This document shows, piece after piece, positions 1 through 7,073 of a stretch of DNA of 7,073 bases (positions within the stretch are counted from its first letter, which is position 1; each line of letters starts with the position of its first letter). This DNA comes from an uncultured beta proteobacterium (GTDB lineage: Bacteria; Pseudomonadota; Gammaproteobacteria; Burkholderiales; Rhodocyclaceae). Location of the stretch: contig CAIVZW010000629.1 of NCBI GenBank assembly GCA_903910495.1, positions 1 through 7,073 of the forward strand, given 5' to 3'. The notes under the pieces were generated by a model, which saw nothing but the letters and a program-made list of their open reading frames with translations, was not told the origin of the DNA and did not search any database. The position numbers were made by a program, and so were the translations under genes.

Positions 1-573
1 TCCGGCCAGCGGAACCCGCAGCACCACCGCCCAATTGATGTTGCCGCTGAGCCGATGGAGCACCGGAAAGGCGATCTTGAGCAGCGCACCGGCGGGCTGC
101 GCCTGCACCCGGGCAACGCTCGCCTGCACCTGCATCATGGCCGCAACGACCTGCTGTTCGGCATCCTCGGCGGGGGCTGCGGCTGCACTGCCGACCAGCA
201 TTTCGCCACGCACGTTGGTGAGCGTGAGCGTGGCGCCCGCCAGCGCCAGTTTCTGGTTTCTCAGAAAAAGGAGCAGATCCGTTTCCCGCCCGGCAGAGTT
301 CGCCAGGGTACTGGCCGTCGCCGGGTTGCTCGCCAGCGACCCGGCCTGCGCCAGCAGGGAAGCTAACTTGACTTCGATTTCACGGCGCTCGAATTTTGCC
401 CGCACCTCGAGCTCGGCGTGGGTGCTGTCGATGATCTGCTGACGCACCATGACAAATGACGCCGAGGCGATAAGCGCCCCGGCCACCAGCACAGCGAAGA
501 TCAGCATCAGCTCGATGCGGCCCTGCGCATCGAGCCGATTGACATACCCGGACAGTGTGTTAAGCAAGCGCAC
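1..573 (-). CDS. Membrane-anchored sensor protein, N-terminal part (runs off the left edge)
   Basis: An open frame of 191 codons, uninterrupted to the window edge, was read by hand. It begins at a GTG (573-571) preceded by AAGGAG with 6 nt spacing, and it overlaps the end of the GGDEF-EAL gene by 14 nt in another frame. The start reads [20 protein letters not shown]. Residues about 22-44 ([20 protein letters not shown]) form one clear membrane helix. The following ~145 residues look extracytoplasmic: a helical stretch (about 46-80), then an alternating strand/helix region with '[14 protein letters not shown]' and '[26 protein letters not shown]', which resembles a Cache-type ligand-binding domain. 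This architecture is typical of the sensor half of histidine kinases, diguanylate cyclases or chemoreceptors. The output domain lies outside the window, so the activity cannot be assigned. As the last visible gene of the receiver/GGDEF-EAL operon it could be the partner kinase, which is inference. Confidence 0.8.
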
Positions 574-2884
574 GGCGTACTCCTTCAAGGGTTTCAGGCG
601 CGTTGCTCGCGGGGGGAAGCGCCGCGCCCTGCTCTCCTGTGGCCGCCGCACGGGGGCCGGAACGCGCTCGCCCGAGCGCCCATTCGAGGAAAACGTCCGG
701 CCGCATCGGGCGCCCGATAAGATAGCCCTGAATCAGGTGGCAGCCTTGGGCGTGAAGCTGTTGCAACTGCTCCAGGGTTTCCACGCCTTCGGCAATGACT
801 TCCAGCCCCATGGCCACCCCCATGCCGACAATGCACGAACTGATGGCTTGCGCACCGCTGTCGGTTTCAAGATCACGCACGAAACTCTGGTCGATCTTCA
901 GCCGGTCAATGGGCAGATGCTTGAGCCGTGAGAGGCTGGAATAGCCGGTGCCAAAATCGTCAATGGCGATCTTGACGCCTAGCGCGCGCAGCGGAGCGAG
1001 GGGGCACGCTTCCGCTTCATGGTGCTTCATGACTTCGCTCTCGGTCACTTCCAGTTCGAGCCGAGCGGGGATGATTCCTGTTTCCTTCAGCACCGACGCC
1101 AGCGTGGCTTCAAGCGCATTGTTGCGCAACTGACGCGGAGAAACATTGACGGACAGGGTAATATGGTCCAGACCCTGCGCTTTCCAGGTCTGCAACTGCT
1201 GGCATGCATTTTTCAGGACCCAGTCACCGATCGCCACGATGGCGCCATTCTTTTCGGCCAGCGGGATAAAGCGGTCCGGCGCAATCTCGCCCAGGGTCGG
1301 ATGCCGCCAACGCAGCAGCGCTTCACAGCCGAGTAGCGTGGTCTGGCCATTGCTGGCCACCTGGGGCTGATACACAAGATAGAGTTCCTGACGTTCGAGG
1401 GCATGCCAGATCTCGGACCCGAGAGTGATCTTTTCCGCCGAGGGCGGCGCCCCAATGGCCGATTCAAACAGGCAGAAGTGGTTTCCGCCGGCCTCTTTTG
1501 CGGCATACATGGCGAGGTCGGCGTGCTTGAGCAGGGCAGCCATCTCCTGACCATCCTGTGGATAGCGCGCACCGCCGATGCTGGCGCCGATCAGTAGCTC
1601 GTGCTCTCCCGCAACGAAGGGCGCGGAGAGAACCTCAATCGCTTTTCCGGCGATTCGGGACAGATCCGCATCGAGGCCCGAGCCGAGGGCCAGGATCACG
1701 AATTCATCACCCCCGACGCGCGCTACCGTATCCCCTTCGCGCACGGCCGCCCTCAGGCGTCCGGCGACCTGCTGGAGAACGATGTCGCCAATGCCATGAC
1801 CGAGACGGTCGTTGATCGGCTTGAAGCGGTCAAGATCGATGTACAGCACGCTCACGCACGAACCGTCGCGCCGCGCTGCCGCCAACGCCTGCTCGGCGCG
1901 ATCATCAAGCAGGCGCCGGTTGGGTAGAGCAGTCAGCGTATCGTGATTGGCCAGATCGGAGAGCTTTCTTTCGGCTTCGATGAGACGGGCAAGATCGGAA
2001 AATACGGCAATGAAAGAGAGCGTGGCGCCACTGTCATCCCTGACCGCGCTAACGGTGACCCACTGCGGGTAGAGTTGCCCGTTCTTCTTGCGGTTGATCA
2101 TCTCACCGCTCCAGCTGCCCGTGTCCAGGATGCTTGCCCAGAAGGCGCGGTAGAACTCGGACCCGTGACAACCCGAGGAGAGCAGGCGTGGATTCTGGCC
2201 CGTGACTTCGTCCTGCGTGTAGCCGGTGATGCGGGTGAAGGCCGGATTGACGGCGATGATCTGGCCTTCGATATCCGTAATCAAGATGCCTTCATGCGCA
2301 CTGCGGAAGACCATGGAGGACATCTGCGACTCGAATTCGGCATTGCGCTTGAGCGACGAGTCACGCATGATCCAGTAGAGGCGTAATTCTCCGGTACTGA
2401 GCACCGGCATCAGCCAGGCGTCAAGCATCACGGTCTGCGCCGGATCGCCGTTGATATAGATAACGAATTCGGCGTGCTCGACCCGGCGCCCGGGGCCTTC
2501 CGTGCCGGCTCTGGCAAGCATTTCTTCGAAACGCGCCCGGTGGTACGGCGCCAACAATTGCCGGAGCGACCGGCCACACAGGGTGGCACCGTTGAGCATC
2601 AGCTTTTCATCGGCACTGAGGCTGGCGTGCCGGATAAGCCCCTGGGCATCGGTCACGACATAGAAATCACTGGCGCAGTGGATCAGATTCTCCAGGATGT
2701 CCTTGCTCTCTAGCAGATGCTCATGCGACTCCTGCAGGTGCTGGTGGTGCTGTTCAAGGTCGGCGTGCCGGTCAAGCAGTATCTGCAGGTCTTCGGCGTA
2801 GCGGTAGAGTTGCGAGTGCAGCGTGGCTTCATGGCTCGCACCGGCCACACGAACAGGGTTGATGGGCTTGCTGTTATCGATCAT
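560..2884 (-). CDS. PAS-PAS-GGDEF-EAL cyclic-di-GMP synthase/phosphodiesterase
   Basis: A 774-residue cytoplasmic protein with no membrane segment. Domains in order: coiled coil with leucines every seven residues (L36, L43, L50, L57, L64); PAS-like domain (about 63-180); typical PAS domain (about 190-305, 'VNPAFTRITGY'); GGDEF domain (about 308-475); EAL domain (about 490-738); low-complexity Ala/Gly/Pro tail. The GGDEF active-site motif is intact (391-395), and an RxxD inhibitory site (R382-D385) sits five residues before it, so product-inhibited c-di-GMP synthesis is possible. EAL residues also look intact: E521-A-L, N580, E612, D642-D643 in DDFGTGYSS, K663, D665, E699 and Q719. Both opposing activities therefore seem possible; which dominates cannot be read from sequence. 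The ATG overlaps the preceding receiver's stop as ATGA and has no good Shine-Dalgarno, which suggests translational coupling. The protein has no receiver of its own, so the two co-transcribed receivers are candidate partners. Confidence 0.95.
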   Translation of the reverse strand: MIDNSKPINPVRVAGASHEATLHSQLYRYAEDLQILLDRHADLEQHHQHLQESHEHLLESKDILENLIHCASDFYVVTDAQGLIRHASLSADEKLMLNGATLCGRSLRQLLAPYHRARFEEMLARAGTEGPGRRVEHAEFVIYINGDPAQTVMLDAWLMPVLSTGELRLYWIMRDSSLKRNAEFESQMSSMVFRSAHEGILITDIEGQIIAVNPAFTRITGYTQDEVTGQNPRLLSSGCHGSEFYRAFWASILDTGSWSGEMINRKKNGQLYPQWVTVSAVRDDSGATLSFIAVFSDLARLIEAERKLSDLANHDTLTALPNRRLLDDRAEQALAAARRDGSCVSVLYIDLDRFKPINDRLGHGIGDIVLQQVAGRLRAAVREGDTVARVGGDEFVILALGSGLDADLSRIAGKAIEVLSAPFVAGEHELLIGASIGGARYPQDGQEMAALLKHADLAMYAAKEAGGNHFCLFESAIGAPPSAEKITLGSEIWHALERQELYLVYQPQVASNGQTTLLGCEALLRWRHPTLGEIAPDRFIPLAEKNGAIVAIGDWVLKNACQQLQTWKAQGLDHITLSVNVSPRQLRNNALEATLASVLKETGIIPARLELEVTESEVMKHHEAEACPLAPLRALGVKIAIDDFGTGYSSLSRLKHLPIDRLKIDQSFVRDLETDSGAQAISSCIVGMGVAMGLEVIAEGVETLEQLQQLHAQGCHLIQGYLIGRPMRPDVFLEWALGRARSGPRAAATGEQGAALPPASNAPETLEGVRRALA
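580..585 (-). promoter_or_regulatory. Ribosome binding site for the GTG-started membrane sensor gene
   Basis: AAGGAG lies 6 nt upstream of the GTG at 573-571, inside the last codons of the GGDEF-EAL gene. It decides the choice of this non-ATG start, because the next in-frame ATG (residue 23) would fall inside the membrane helix. Confidence 0.75.
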
Positions 2885-3243
2885 TTCAGTTTTTCACGCA
2901 CCCAGTTGACCACCTGCAACGGGCTGAATGGCTTGATGAAATAGGCATCCGCTCCGCGTTTCTGTCCGATCTCGTAGTCGGCAGACTGCCCGCGGGCGGT
3001 GATCATGGCCACCAGCGTGTCGCTCAACTCCGGATCACCCTTGATGGTATCGAGTACCTGCAAGCCGTCCAGTTCGCCTGGCATCATGATGTCGAGCAGA
3101 ACCACTTCCGGATGCTGCCGCCGGATGATCTCGAGCGCCGTTAGCCCGTCTTCCGCTTCGAGAACTTCATACGCCTTCCCGAGCGTGATGCTGAGCAGAC
3201 GGCGGATGTCGGAATGATCGTCAACAATAAGAATCTTGACCAT
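2881..3243 (-). CDS. Stand-alone CheY-like receiver (downstream copy, receiver 1)
   Basis: A 120-residue single-domain response regulator with no output domain. Acidic pocket D8-D9, phosphoacceptor D51 in 'LLDIMMPG', switch threonine T82 and lysine K104 in 'FIKPF' are all present, so it should be phosphorylatable. The length is normal for a lone receiver. The TGA stop overlaps the ATG of the GGDEF-EAL gene (ATGA), so production of the two is probably coupled. The SD (GGAG, 9 nt before the ATG) lies inside the last codons of the other receiver gene, only 3 nt upstream. It is 105/120 identical (hand count) to the neighbouring receiver, its tandem duplicate. This copy keeps the conserved proline after the phosphoacceptor loop (P55) and the original stop. 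A likely role is passing a phosphate-dependent signal to the adjacent c-di-GMP enzyme or acting in a phosphorelay; both are inference. Confidence 0.95.
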   Translation of the reverse strand: MVKILIVDDHSDIRRLLSITLGKAYEVLEAEDGLTALEIIRRQHPEVVLLDIMMPGELDGLQVLDTIKGDPELSDTLVAMITARGQSADYEIGQKRGADAYFIKPFSPLQVVNWVREKLK

Positions 3244-3246
3244 GCG

Positions 3247-3642
3247 TCACGGCTCCAGTGAATAAGAACTGAGAAATCCTGATTTCAGTTTTTCACGCAC
3301 CCAGCTGAACACCTGCAAGGGGCTGAACGGCTTGATGAAATAGGCATCCGCTCCGCGTTTCAGTCCGATCTCGTAGTCGGCAGACTGCCCGCGGGCGGTG
3401 ATCATGGCCACCAGCGTGTCCTTCAATGCCGGATCACTCTTGATGGCATCGAGTACCTGCAAGCCGCCCGGCTCTCCAGACATCATGATGTCGAGCAGAA
3501 CCACTTCCGGATGCTGCCGCCGGATGACCTCGAGCGCCGTCAGACTGTCTTCCGCTTCGAGAACTTCATACGCCTTCCCGAACGTGATGTTGAGCAGACG
3601 GCGGATGTCGGAATGATCGTCAACAATAAGAATCTTAATCAT
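3247..3642 (-). CDS. Stand-alone CheY-like receiver with duplication-derived C-terminal tail (upstream copy, receiver 2)
   Basis: A 131-residue single-domain response regulator and first gene of the minus-strand operon. D8-D9, D51, T82 and K104 are retained, so phosphorylation chemistry looks intact. The conserved proline of the 'DxxMPG' loop is serine here (S55). Compared with receiver 1 there are 15 substitutions in 120 positions, seven of them between residues 55 and 74 (55, 58, 59, 66, 69, 72, 74). The segment 75-111, including 'MITARGQSADYEIG' and 'FIKPFSPLQV', differs only at residue 94. After K120 the stop found in receiver 1 is missing and translation continues for 11 residues (SGFLSSYSLEP) into what was the leader of the ancestral gene. 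The tail codons also carry the SD of receiver 1, which starts 3 nt after this gene's stop. Its own SD is weaker (AGAG where receiver 1 has GGAG). I chose the ATG at 3642 by homology to receiver 1. Confidence 0.93.
   Translation of the reverse strand: MIKILIVDDHSDIRRLLNITFGKAYEVLEAEDSLTALEVIRRQHPEVVLLDIMMSGEPGGLQVLDAIKSDPALKDTLVAMITARGQSADYEIGLKRGADAYFIKPFSPLQVFSWVREKLKSGFLSSYSLEP
3253..3256 (-). promoter_or_regulatory. Shine-Dalgarno of receiver 1, embedded in receiver 2 tail codons
   Basis: GGAG lies 9 nt upstream of the ATG at 3243 and is translated as part of the 'LEP' end of receiver 2. The equivalent site before receiver 2 (3652-3655) reads AGAG, one base weaker. The overlap makes translation of receiver 1 depend on, or compete with, ribosomes finishing receiver 2. 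Confidence 0.6.
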
Positions 3643-3938: not shown

Positions 3939-4574
3939 ATGATTGAAAAAGACGAACAAGCGCTGAACAAAGTCGGGGATGAGTACATCACGACCCGCCA
4001 GGCGGCAGAAAAGCTCGGCCTTTCCCTCGGCACGGTGCAGCAGATGGTTGAAAGTGGCACGCTGGCGGCGTGGAAGACCGACGGCGGGCACCGCCGGGTG
4101 AGCATGGCTTCGGTCAACGAGCACCTTGCGCGAAGGAGTGGCATGGCGTCGTTGCCGCGAACGCGAAGCAGCGAGTTCTCGGTGCTGATCGCCGAAGATG
4201 ACACCAACCTGCAAACGCTCTACAGAATGACTTTGGCCAGTTGGAACTTGCCCATTACAATCAATATCGTTGACAACGGATATGAAGGTCTGGTGCAAAT
4301 CGGCCTGCAAGCGCCCGCGGTGCTGATTCTCGATCTGAGCATGCCGAAGATTGATGGATTCGAGATGATCCGTACGCTGCGTGCCAATCCTGCATTGTCG
4401 ACGATGGACATCATCGTGGTCACCGGGATGAGCCCCGATATCATTGAGCAGCGCGGCGGCCTGCCCTTGGGTACGACGATCTTCGGGAAGCCGATTCCTT
4501 TCCACCAGTTGCAGGGCTATCTGCAGGCCAAACTGGCACAGCACCAGCGCAGCATGACGGGGAGCAGCAGCTAG
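3939..4574 (+). CDS. Excisionase/MerR-like HTH fused to a C-terminal receiver: DNA-binding response regulator
   Basis: A 211-residue soluble protein. Residues about 16-64 (YITTRQAAEKLGLSLGTVQQ, then the wing 'WKTDGGHRRV') form an excisionase-type winged HTH of the MerR-related HTH_17 class. A short linker with R/S residues (66-78) leads to a receiver domain (about 80-200) with acidic residues E86-D87-D88, phosphoacceptor D132 in 'LILDLSMP', T162 and K184 in 'FGKP', all intact. The order is reversed from OmpR or NarL types, where the receiver comes first. An in-frame TAA at 3909 with no start codon between it and 3939 fixes the ATG as the first possible start; the SD is weak. It is divergent from the receiver/GGDEF-EAL operon and probably binds the shared intergenic region (inference). 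It is not taken as a phage excisionase: no integrase or att site is visible. Its 3' end is 17 bp from that of the convergent kinase-like gene, with no hairpin terminator between. Confidence 0.93.
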   Translation: MIEKDEQALNKVGDEYITTRQAAEKLGLSLGTVQQMVESGTLAAWKTDGGHRRVSMASVNEHLARRSGMASLPRTRSSEFSVLIAEDDTNLQTLYRMTLASWNLPITINIVDNGYEGLVQIGLQAPAVLILDLSMPKIDGFEMIRTLRANPALSTMDIIVVTGMSPDIIEQRGGLPLGTTIFGKPIPFHQLQGYLQAKLAQHQRSMTGSSS

Positions 4575-4591: not shown

Positions 4592-7006
4592 TCATACGAC
4601 GGCCAGCGTGGCTTGATCAGCGACGGAGAGCGGCAAGTAAAGGGTGATGCGGCTGCCTTTGCCAAAATCGCTGCTCACTTCGAGCGAACCGCCGTGCAAT
4701 TGAACGATTTCCTTGACCAGCGAAATTCCCAGGCCGGTTCCCGGCGTCTCGCCCGAAGGTTCGGCGCGCCAGAAGCGTTCGCCAAAGCGTGCCAGATGCT
4801 CTGCGTTCATGCCGATCCCGTGATCGACGATGGTCACCCTGACCCGTGGCGGTTCTTCGTCGGACGTGAGGCCTATCGAAATGAACACGGCTTCGTCCGG
4901 CGACGAGAATTTCAAGGCGTTGTCCACTAGATTGTTCAGTGCCTGATGGATTTTCTGCTTATCCACATTGACCAGGGATAAGTGCTCGGGGGCTTCGATC
5001 GCCACCCGGCTGGTGTACTCCGGAAAGGACACGGCGACGGCTTCTACGATCGGCCACAGGTCTTGTACAGCGGGCTTGAAATCCTTACCCTGGCGCGCTT
5101 CGATGCGCGCCAGATCGAGAAGTTCGCTGAGCAGATCGGTGACGCGATGAGCCTGACGGGCGATGATTTCAAGCGGATCGCGGCGGCTTTCCGCATCAAA
5201 ATCGCGCTGCAGAAGCAACTCGGAAAAACCCAGGATGCTGGCCATCGGGCTGCGCAACTCGTAGGCCGCGGTGGATAGAAACTCACTCTTCATCTGTTCG
5301 ATCTCGCGCGCCTTGGTAATGTCCTTGAAATAGAGGAGCAGCGACGTTTCGTGGCTGCCCCGGCGAACCGTCAGCAGCAAGATGCGTTTCTCCGGCTGCG
5401 CCAGCTGAATTTCCATTTCGCAATTCGACGTCCAGCCCGTCGTGTCGAGGGTGCTCGTGCACTTCTCGATACTGCAGTACGGATAGCCTGGAGCACAGAG
5501 TCCGGCAAGGCGCTGATCAAGATCCCGCAGTTGAAGCCCCATCAACGCCGGCAGGCCGAGTCCGAACAGGCGCAGGAAGGTTTCGTTGGCATAGGTGACG
5601 CAATTCTTTGCATCAAGGGTAACCAGGCCGTCAGCGCTCATCGTGCTCAGCACGTCGAGCCGCCTTACCCAGGCCATCAACTCCTGTTCGGCAGATTTCT
5701 GGTCCGTGACGTCGTCCAGCAGTCCGAAGTAATGGGTGAGATTGCCGCTCTCATCATGCACCGGCGAGACTGAAAGCTGGTTCCAGAACAAGCTGCCGTC
5801 CTTGCGGTAATTGCGCAGCGTGACGGTGATCGACTGCTGCCCCAGGATCGTGCGCCGCAATTCTCGCAGGGCAGCCTGATCGATGTCATGCTTGTGGAGC
5901 TTTCCGGGGGACTGGCCGATGATCTCGGCGGCAGAGTAGCCGGTGATCTTCTCAAAGGCCGGGTTGACAGATTCGATCCGGGTTGGCCAATTGCCCATGT
6001 TGACGATCATGACCCCCTTTGAACAGGCCATCATGGCCTGTCTATTCAGCAACAGCTTCTTTACGGTAAGTGGCGCCCCGCCGAGGTTGGCGTGATGCAA
6101 GTAACCGCTTTTGCTGCGCGCCATGCGGTAACCGAGATAAGCGGTGAGGCCGACAACGACGACTAACAGCAGCAGAAAGGAGAAGTGCAAGCGGTATAAC
6201 GGCCGCAGGACATCGTATTCCCGCTGGCTGAATTCCAGCGAGAGTGGCGGTGACAGAGCGACGCTGGACTCTATTGCCATCGACACGCTGAGTCTTGCCT
6301 CGCCATCCGGCAAACTGCCGAGCCGGAGCAGGCTTTCGCCTGAGTCCAGGCGTAACTCGATCATCATGCGCGGGCTGTTCGCGTCAAGGGCCAGAGCGGC
6401 CATCTGGAGAAGATCGAATTCGGCGATCAGCACACGCTGCAGCCTCCTGCTCACCGGCAGGAAGACCGGGTAGCCTACCAGATAGCGCGTCGCCCCCGGC
6501 TGAGTAGCAAAGCGCGCAGCAGGCAAGCCTGTTGCAACAACTTCTGCAAACAGGCGATCACGCAGGTCTGCTGATGTTGCCGATTTTCCGCTGCTGTAAT
6601 GTCTCAGGCCCTGAACATCGAGAGCCGTCAGGGACTCAAGTCCAAGCGGCAATCCCGGGGGACCATTCAGAAAGGGCTGGACTTCCTTGCCGGCCGGGGG
6701 GGTGGCCGCGTATTCCCCGAGTATCGGGGTGCTGCGGCTAAGTGCTTCAACAAGACCCCTGGCGCGCCGGAATTCACCTTCAAGACGCTGCTGCGCCACT
6801 GTTGCCGACGTGTGCAGGCCCTGATCAATGAGCGACTGCGAGAAACTGATCAAAAGCCCTCCGGCGAGCGCGAGAAGCAGGATCGAGATACCGAGAACGA
6901 GGCTCAGACGGATTCCGAAACCGCTGTTTTGCAGTGTCCTTAGCGCCCGCACTGATGCAAACGAATGCTTTGAGCCCTCTGCTGCTGACATGGCTGCCGC
7001 GCTCAT
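4592..7006 (-). CDS. Membrane PAS-PAS histidine-kinase-like protein with Tyr in place of the phosphoacceptor His
   Basis: An 804-residue protein. TM1 about 33-56, extracytoplasmic region about 58-272 (no family recognised with certainty; Cache-like strand pattern near 'GATRYLVGYPVFLP'), TM2 about 274-293. PAS1 about 320-437 contains 'VNPAFEKITGYSAAEIIGQ' and 'NYRKDGSLFWNQLSVSPV'. PAS2 about 445-563 contains four cysteines (C504, C511, C516, C529). A HisKA-like helical hairpin (about 570-638) follows, then a HATPase domain (about 685-795). The ATP-binding motifs look intact: N box 'NNLVDNALKF', G1 'DHGIGM', F-box-like 'FGERFWRAEP' and G2 'GTGLGISLVK'. The H-box reads 'STAAYELRSPMASI'; the usual histidine is Y582 (codon TAC at 5263-5261), one C-to-T change from CAC. 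It may be a pseudokinase, a regulator of another kinase, or a natural or sequencing variant. The ATG at 7006 has GGAG 6 nt upstream. A second in-frame ATG (residue 6) is less well supported. Confidence 0.93.
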   Translation of the reverse strand: MSAAAMSAAEGSKHSFASVRALRTLQNSGFGIRLSLVLGISILLLALAGGLLISFSQSLIDQGLHTSATVAQQRLEGEFRRARGLVEALSRSTPILGEYAATPPAGKEVQPFLNGPPGLPLGLESLTALDVQGLRHYSSGKSATSADLRDRLFAEVVATGLPAARFATQPGATRYLVGYPVFLPVSRRLQRVLIAEFDLLQMAALALDANSPRMMIELRLDSGESLLRLGSLPDGEARLSVSMAIESSVALSPPLSLEFSQREYDVLRPLYRLHFSFLLLLVVVVGLTAYLGYRMARSKSGYLHHANLGGAPLTVKKLLLNRQAMMACSKGVMIVNMGNWPTRIESVNPAFEKITGYSAAEIIGQSPGKLHKHDIDQAALRELRRTILGQQSITVTLRNYRKDGSLFWNQLSVSPVHDESGNLTHYFGLLDDVTDQKSAEQELMAWVRRLDVLSTMSADGLVTLDAKNCVTYANETFLRLFGLGLPALMGLQLRDLDQRLAGLCAPGYPYCSIEKCTSTLDTTGWTSNCEMEIQLAQPEKRILLLTVRRGSHETSLLLYFKDITKAREIEQMKSEFLSTAAYELRSPMASILGFSELLLQRDFDAESRRDPLEIIARQAHRVTDLLSELLDLARIEARQGKDFKPAVQDLWPIVEAVAVSFPEYTSRVAIEAPEHLSLVNVDKQKIHQALNNLVDNALKFSSPDEAVFISIGLTSDEEPPRVRVTIVDHGIGMNAEHLARFGERFWRAEPSGETPGTGLGISLVKEIVQLHGGSLEVSSDFGKGSRITLYLPLSVADQATLAVV

Positions 7007-7020: not shown

Positions 7021-7073
7021 TCAGTTGGCCAGACGCCCGGGTCTGCCCGCCAACTCATTGACCGTATCGAGCA
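7021..7073 (-). CDS. Probable C-terminal end of an upstream gene (partial)
   Basis: On the minus strand one frame enters from the window edge, reads LDTVNELAGRPGRLAN and stops at TGA (7023-7021), 14 bp before the kinase-like ATG. The stop just upstream of the SD is what an operon junction looks like, and codon third positions are GC-rich like the neighbours. Sixteen residues are too few to identify a family. A second frame is also open across these bases and through the kinase gene start, but it looks like a shadow of the kinase gene. Confidence 0.4.
   Translation of the reverse strand, partial: LDTVNELAGRPGRLAN

Follow-up and report, generated by a model that had tools for sequence, protein, structure and literature searches.

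The window analysed here (7,073 nucleotides of a single contig from an uncultured beta proteobacterium) carries a large gene for a sensor protein of the histidine kinase type, surrounded by genes for receiver proteins and by a gene whose family is associated with c-di-GMP turnover (Table 1). The kinase reading frame is intact over its 804 codons, without internal stop. Just upstream of it lies the end of a receiver-domain gene, LDTVNELAGRPGRLAN followed by a stop, which finishes 14 nucleotides before the first ATG of the kinase. The tandem single-domain receiver genes are 92.6% identical over their first 340 nucleotides and differ, for instance, in MMSGEPGG (copy 1) against MMPGELDG (copy 2), so that copy 1 may be drifting. 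At the other end of the window (1-651), a minus-strand frame of 217 residues with a hydrophobic segment and no Pfam match runs off the edge and is possibly the start of another sensor. An origin from a plasmid or phage was rejected: tblastn matched at least 5000 plasmid records, but among the matches listed identity always stayed under 60% and query coverage never reached 80%, and megablast of the whole window found no match in plasmids or phages.

Table 1. Features of the window, with positions counted from its first nucleotide.
Feature	Positions	Strand	Evidence or remark
804-residue sensor protein: N-terminal helix, sensor fold (about 120-262), second long helix, PAS, second PAS-like fold, HisKA, HATPase_c	4592..7006	-	ORF, Pfam, AlphaFold2
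First PAS domain, residues 331-435	5702..6016	-	Pfam
HisKA (PF00512), residues 572-637	5096..5293	-	Pfam 54.9 bits, cut-off 26.9
Codon 582, TAC (Tyr), phosphoacceptor position of HisKA	5261..5263	-	His in 119/119 other alignment rows
Codon 586, AGC (Ser), H+4	5249..5251	-	Thr in 119/119 others
HATPase_c (PF02518), residues 682-794	4625..4963	-	Pfam 94.1 bits, cut-off 26.4
C-terminus of receiver-domain gene, cut by window edge	7021..7071	-	resembles end of L001 receiver (6367-6756)
HTH_17 and receiver protein, convergent with the kinase	3939..4574	+	17 bases between stops; orthologue L002 2729-3361, 71% identity
Single-domain receiver, copy 1 of tandem pair	3247..3642	-	Pfam
Single-domain receiver, copy 2 of tandem pair	2881..3243	-	Pfam
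PAS-GGDEF-EAL protein, c-di-GMP turnover by family	560..2884	-	Pfam

The HisKA and HATPase_c domains, whose joint presence defines the HisKA histidine kinases at the domain level, both score above their Pfam cut-offs. The AlphaFold2 model (mean pLDDT 80.0, pTM 0.40, from a 31-row alignment) places the second long helix at residues 263-298, followed by two PAS-like folds, the DHp helices (564-600 and 605-638) and the catalytic domain. The two long helices presumably cross the membrane, because their sequence is hydrophobic. On the effect of the Tyr described below the model is uninformative, since the other rows of its alignment are His-bearing.

Plus-strand positions 5261-5263 read GTA, which gives the minus-strand codon TAC and therefore Tyr at residue 582 of the frame 7006..4592. 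This residue lies within the H-box, because it falls inside the Pfam HisKA match. The residue was compared in an alignment built from a homologue search with residues 330-804 as query, in which 7996 candidates were scored and 2956 fell below the cut-off; the alignment holds the best 120 of these 2956, i.e., the window protein itself and 119 others. All 119 carry the phosphoacceptor His that is characteristic of HisKA histidine kinases, and the window protein carries Tyr, which bears out the sequence-only reading that Tyr replaces this His. That reading had also considered the remainder of the H-box conserved, which is mostly so, except that residue 586 (H+4) is Ser where all the others have Thr. 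The Thr at H+4 has a role in the phosphatase activity of histidine kinases. The change T586S is a mild one, given that Ser at H+4 occurs together with His in three kinases (P0121, P0123 and P0125). The proposed origin of the Tyr codon by a single transition from CAC is possible, although the one orthologue whose DNA was read (L001) has CAT. The DHp helices offer no His that could compensate: there is none anywhere in the first helix, and the His of the second (RQAHRV) is no replacement, because P0002, a His-bearing relative, has the same one.

The kinase core is otherwise conserved. Conserved residues are retained throughout the N, G1, F and G2 boxes, so the impression that all ATP-binding motifs are conserved holds for the boxes themselves, with a single nearby departure (D749E) just after the F box. 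Eighty columns show agreement in at least 95% of the other rows, and at three of these the window protein departs (H582Y, T586S and D749E). The number of deviations is ordinary (the median row has one, and 11 of the 119 other rows have more than the window protein); the choice of sites that have changed is not. Given that the His column was hit, the chance that the Thr column is among the other two hits is 2/79, about 0.025. The residues that determine receiver specificity were also compared, using five HK853 positions altered in rewiring structures (according to the PDB entry titles), which the alignment places at 590, 593, 597, 614 and 617. They read SGLIR in the window protein (P0001) and in P0002-P0006 alike. 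This match is consistent with kept receiver docking and is weak as proof, because four of the five positions vary little in any row (of the 119 other rows, all agree at 590 and 593, 118 have Leu at 597 and 110 have Arg at 617, which leaves only 614 with much variation). Conserved columns and specificity positions together support the earlier description of a phosphoacceptor lost in an otherwise conserved kinase core.

It had also been suggested that the protein might belong to a Tyr-bearing subfamily. No second Tyr-bearing member was found among the 119 listed homologues, among the nine other proteins hit by a word search with residues 560-612 (18 candidates, ten hits including the window protein; all nine others His-bearing, six of them new), or among seven H-boxes of six related loci. 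These loci come from the family of genome G001, in which 7 of 199 genomes match at E 1e-110 or better, namely the L001 place itself and L043-L048, whose seven H-boxes all carry His; in the genus of G001, the one genome of two that matched was G001 itself. The subfamily was thus rejected, as every relative inspected carries His. The comparison of close orthologues at column 582, proposed together with the sequence-only reading, returned His in all of them, the outcome that had been named as telling against it. This removes the subfamily and leaves a lineage-specific pseudokinase and a recent loss allele undivided. A search restricted to the sensor region matched, among the 7994 candidates scored, no protein but that of the window; this reflects the limit of search sensitivity, because residues 20-300 have 45% identity to the L001 orthologue.

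A broader count of Tyr-bearing H-boxes was obtained with a DNA pattern for AYELR[ST]P (which also admits other residues); within the order of G001 it matched 7 out of 399 genomes, and on reading, one of the seven lay in a kinase, which belongs to another subfamily. The matching His pattern gave 106 hits (unchecked individually), in 48 of 60 genomes. By scaling, the ratio of Tyr to His H-boxes is roughly 1:700, a crude figure that misses other Tyr H-boxes because both patterns require Ala before the site. The one kinase found in this way (L039, minus strand, AYELRTP at the H-box), which we take to be QseC-like, is a separate His-to-Tyr case.

The closest relatives of the window protein are at most 70% identical over residues 330-804 (among the matches listed), a distance that leaves room for a very recent Tyr change on its branch. 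These nearest relatives carry His, and two of them are named Betaproteobacteria MAGs; the His-bearing proteins P0002-P0006 are 809-813 residues long, with a Pfam list identical to that of the window protein. A tree was built from 41 rows, namely L001 and 40 of the 120 aligned proteins; in it the window protein is sister to P0002-P0006 and L001 (support 96/92), and its branch (0.29) is not longer than that of P0006 (0.33). Against L001, the Nei-Gojobori method gives dN 0.057 and dS 0.94 over the HisKA residues 562-640 (dN/dS about 0.06), and dN 0.21 and dS 1.17 over residues 330-692; in both cases dS is near saturation, and dN/dS averages one His-bearing and one Tyr-bearing lineage. In a simulation of neutral drift (400 runs per rate), the outcome of at most one further hit and no stop had frequencies of 0.05 and 0.005 at 0.02 and 0.03 substitutions per site, respectively. 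These low frequencies indicate that the gene has been under constraint after the loss of the His, or that it changed very recently; the simulation and the dN/dS data do not choose between the two.

The neighbourhood is partly shared with MAG bin-1010, which holds the orthologue locus L001 and, in the same bin, L002. At L001 the order of receiver and kinase and the 14-nucleotide spacing are the same as in the window, with the receiver recognised by Pfam (Response_reg). Directly upstream of this pair (L001 5241-6356) lies a PAS/HATPase protein of 371 residues without a Pfam HisKA match, which on alignment has Cys at the H position and Gly at H+4 and has lost the N and G1 boxes; it has the features of a strongly degenerate pseudokinase adjoining the His-bearing orthologue. 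In a looser relative (G469, locus L043), two His-bearing kinases flank a receiver (Pfam HisKA, Response_reg, HisKA), the second of them ending early, near the contig start. No such kinase-receiver-kinase pattern was found, by crude motif labels, at three other relatives' loci (L050-L052). At L002 three genes, two HD-GYP-like and one for a bacteriohemerythrin, stand between the end of the kinase and the convergent HTH-receiver gene; in the window these three genes are absent from that interval. The comparison covers two genomes, and either arrangement may be the older one.

Among proteins of known structure, the window protein most resembles the canonical HisKA kinases such as HK853 of Thermotoga maritima, with which it shares the core (best PDB matches E 3.6e-35 to 4.6e-34, along with fold matches). 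Wild-type HK853 has the phosphoacceptor His (H260, in agreement with the title of entry 6rh7) where the window protein has Tyr. A precedent for the Tyr is DivL of Caulobacter crescentus (PDB 4q20). According to the excerpted text of PMC4211667, DivL also combines Tyr at the phosphoacceptor site with PAS domains before a HisKA/HATPase-type core, is inactive in vitro both as an autokinase and as a phosphatase, has only weak affinity for an ATP analogue, and is a binding partner of DivK~P; DivL in other bacteria is discussed in excerpts of PMC4426382 and PMC2877005. Because DivL itself binds the ATP analogue weakly, the intact boxes of the window protein are no proof of ATP binding. The two cores can be aligned (E 6.6e-25), with DivL the 8th of 36 PDB sequences for the kinase-core query, behind six HK853-type sequences and SrrB. 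The nearest relatives of the window protein are His-bearing: P0002-P0006 and the bin-1010 orthologue all carry His 582 and Thr 586, where the window protein has Tyr and Ser. This, like the rank of DivL in the PDB comparison, points against orthology to alphaproteobacterial DivL, and the window protein is probably independent of the Caulobacter one. Among the open-licence papers listed, none describes a His-to-Tyr kinase of this family, as far as the beginnings of abstracts show.

Taking the evidence as a whole, and with about even confidence, we consider the window protein to be a lineage-specific pseudo-histidine kinase, placed in a receiver/c-di-GMP cluster of betaproteobacterial type, which keeps receiver docking and lacks His phosphotransfer. 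Provided that the base is correct, His phosphotransfer has very likely been lost; for both the function of the protein and the age of its change, the inference draws on one contig and one Tyr-bearing genome. In this interpretation, the protein would be unable to autophosphorylate on His or to pass phosphate to a receiver, and would perhaps be weakened as a phosphatase, while it should still fold, dimerise and probably bind nucleotide. It would still dock a receiver, for which the likeliest candidate is the one encoded immediately upstream, and would most likely act as a sensor-controlled binding partner, which either sequesters or reads the phosphorylated receiver or modulates a partner kinase. 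This partner is predicted to be encoded just beyond the window edge, because G469 has kinase, receiver and kinase with His in both kinases, and at L001, the nearest sequenced relative, a receiver lies between a degenerate kinase-like protein and an intact kinase. A pseudokinase controlling a partner kinase had been among the original suggestions, and a maintained regulatory pseudokinase is indeed the best reading, at a level of about one half, although a recent loss allele fits the same data.

This last explanation, in which the kinase was disabled too lately for decay to have set in, perhaps together with the loss of its downstream output genes, is a doubtful although serious one. It agrees with the lack of Tyr-bearing relatives among the 119 rows and the nine word-search hits, with the absence of the HD-GYP-like and hemerythrin genes of L002 (a possible sign of ongoing pathway loss), and with the simulation, which permits neutral evolution over a span of up to about 0.02 substitutions per site. 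It fits less well with two H-box sites having changed instead of one, with all other conserved columns but one being unchanged, and with the intact reading frame. An error in the base, or a minority allele in the assembly consensus, is improbable: a single base would suffice to turn a His codon into a Tyr codon that is known from one contig, yet this would leave the second H-box change (T586S) unexplained, in a gene that is free of internal stops. That the protein still autophosphorylates, on Tyr 582 or on another residue, seems very improbable, in spite of the ATP-binding boxes retaining their conserved residues (bar D749E), since the first DHp helix offers no His, the His of the second is also found in P0002, and DivL, with Tyr at the same position, shows no autokinase activity in vitro in the excerpted account (PMC4211667).

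Returning to the lineage-specific pseudo-histidine kinase, a more specific form of it, which we regard as unlikely, is a DivL-like pseudokinase arisen independently outside the Alphaproteobacteria, within a kinase-receiver-kinase module whose kinases are both open to conversion; in MAG bin-1010 this would have befallen the upstream kinase (with Cys), and here the downstream one (with Tyr). The converted kinase would then act as a reader of the phosphorylated receiver, gating the other kinase as well as the c-di-GMP output. DivL is the worked-out His-to-Tyr pseudo-histidine kinase in the literature found; if true, another case of independent origin, in which the core is intact and His-bearing relatives are fairly close, would lend itself to comparative study of the way in which kinases turn into non-catalytic regulators.
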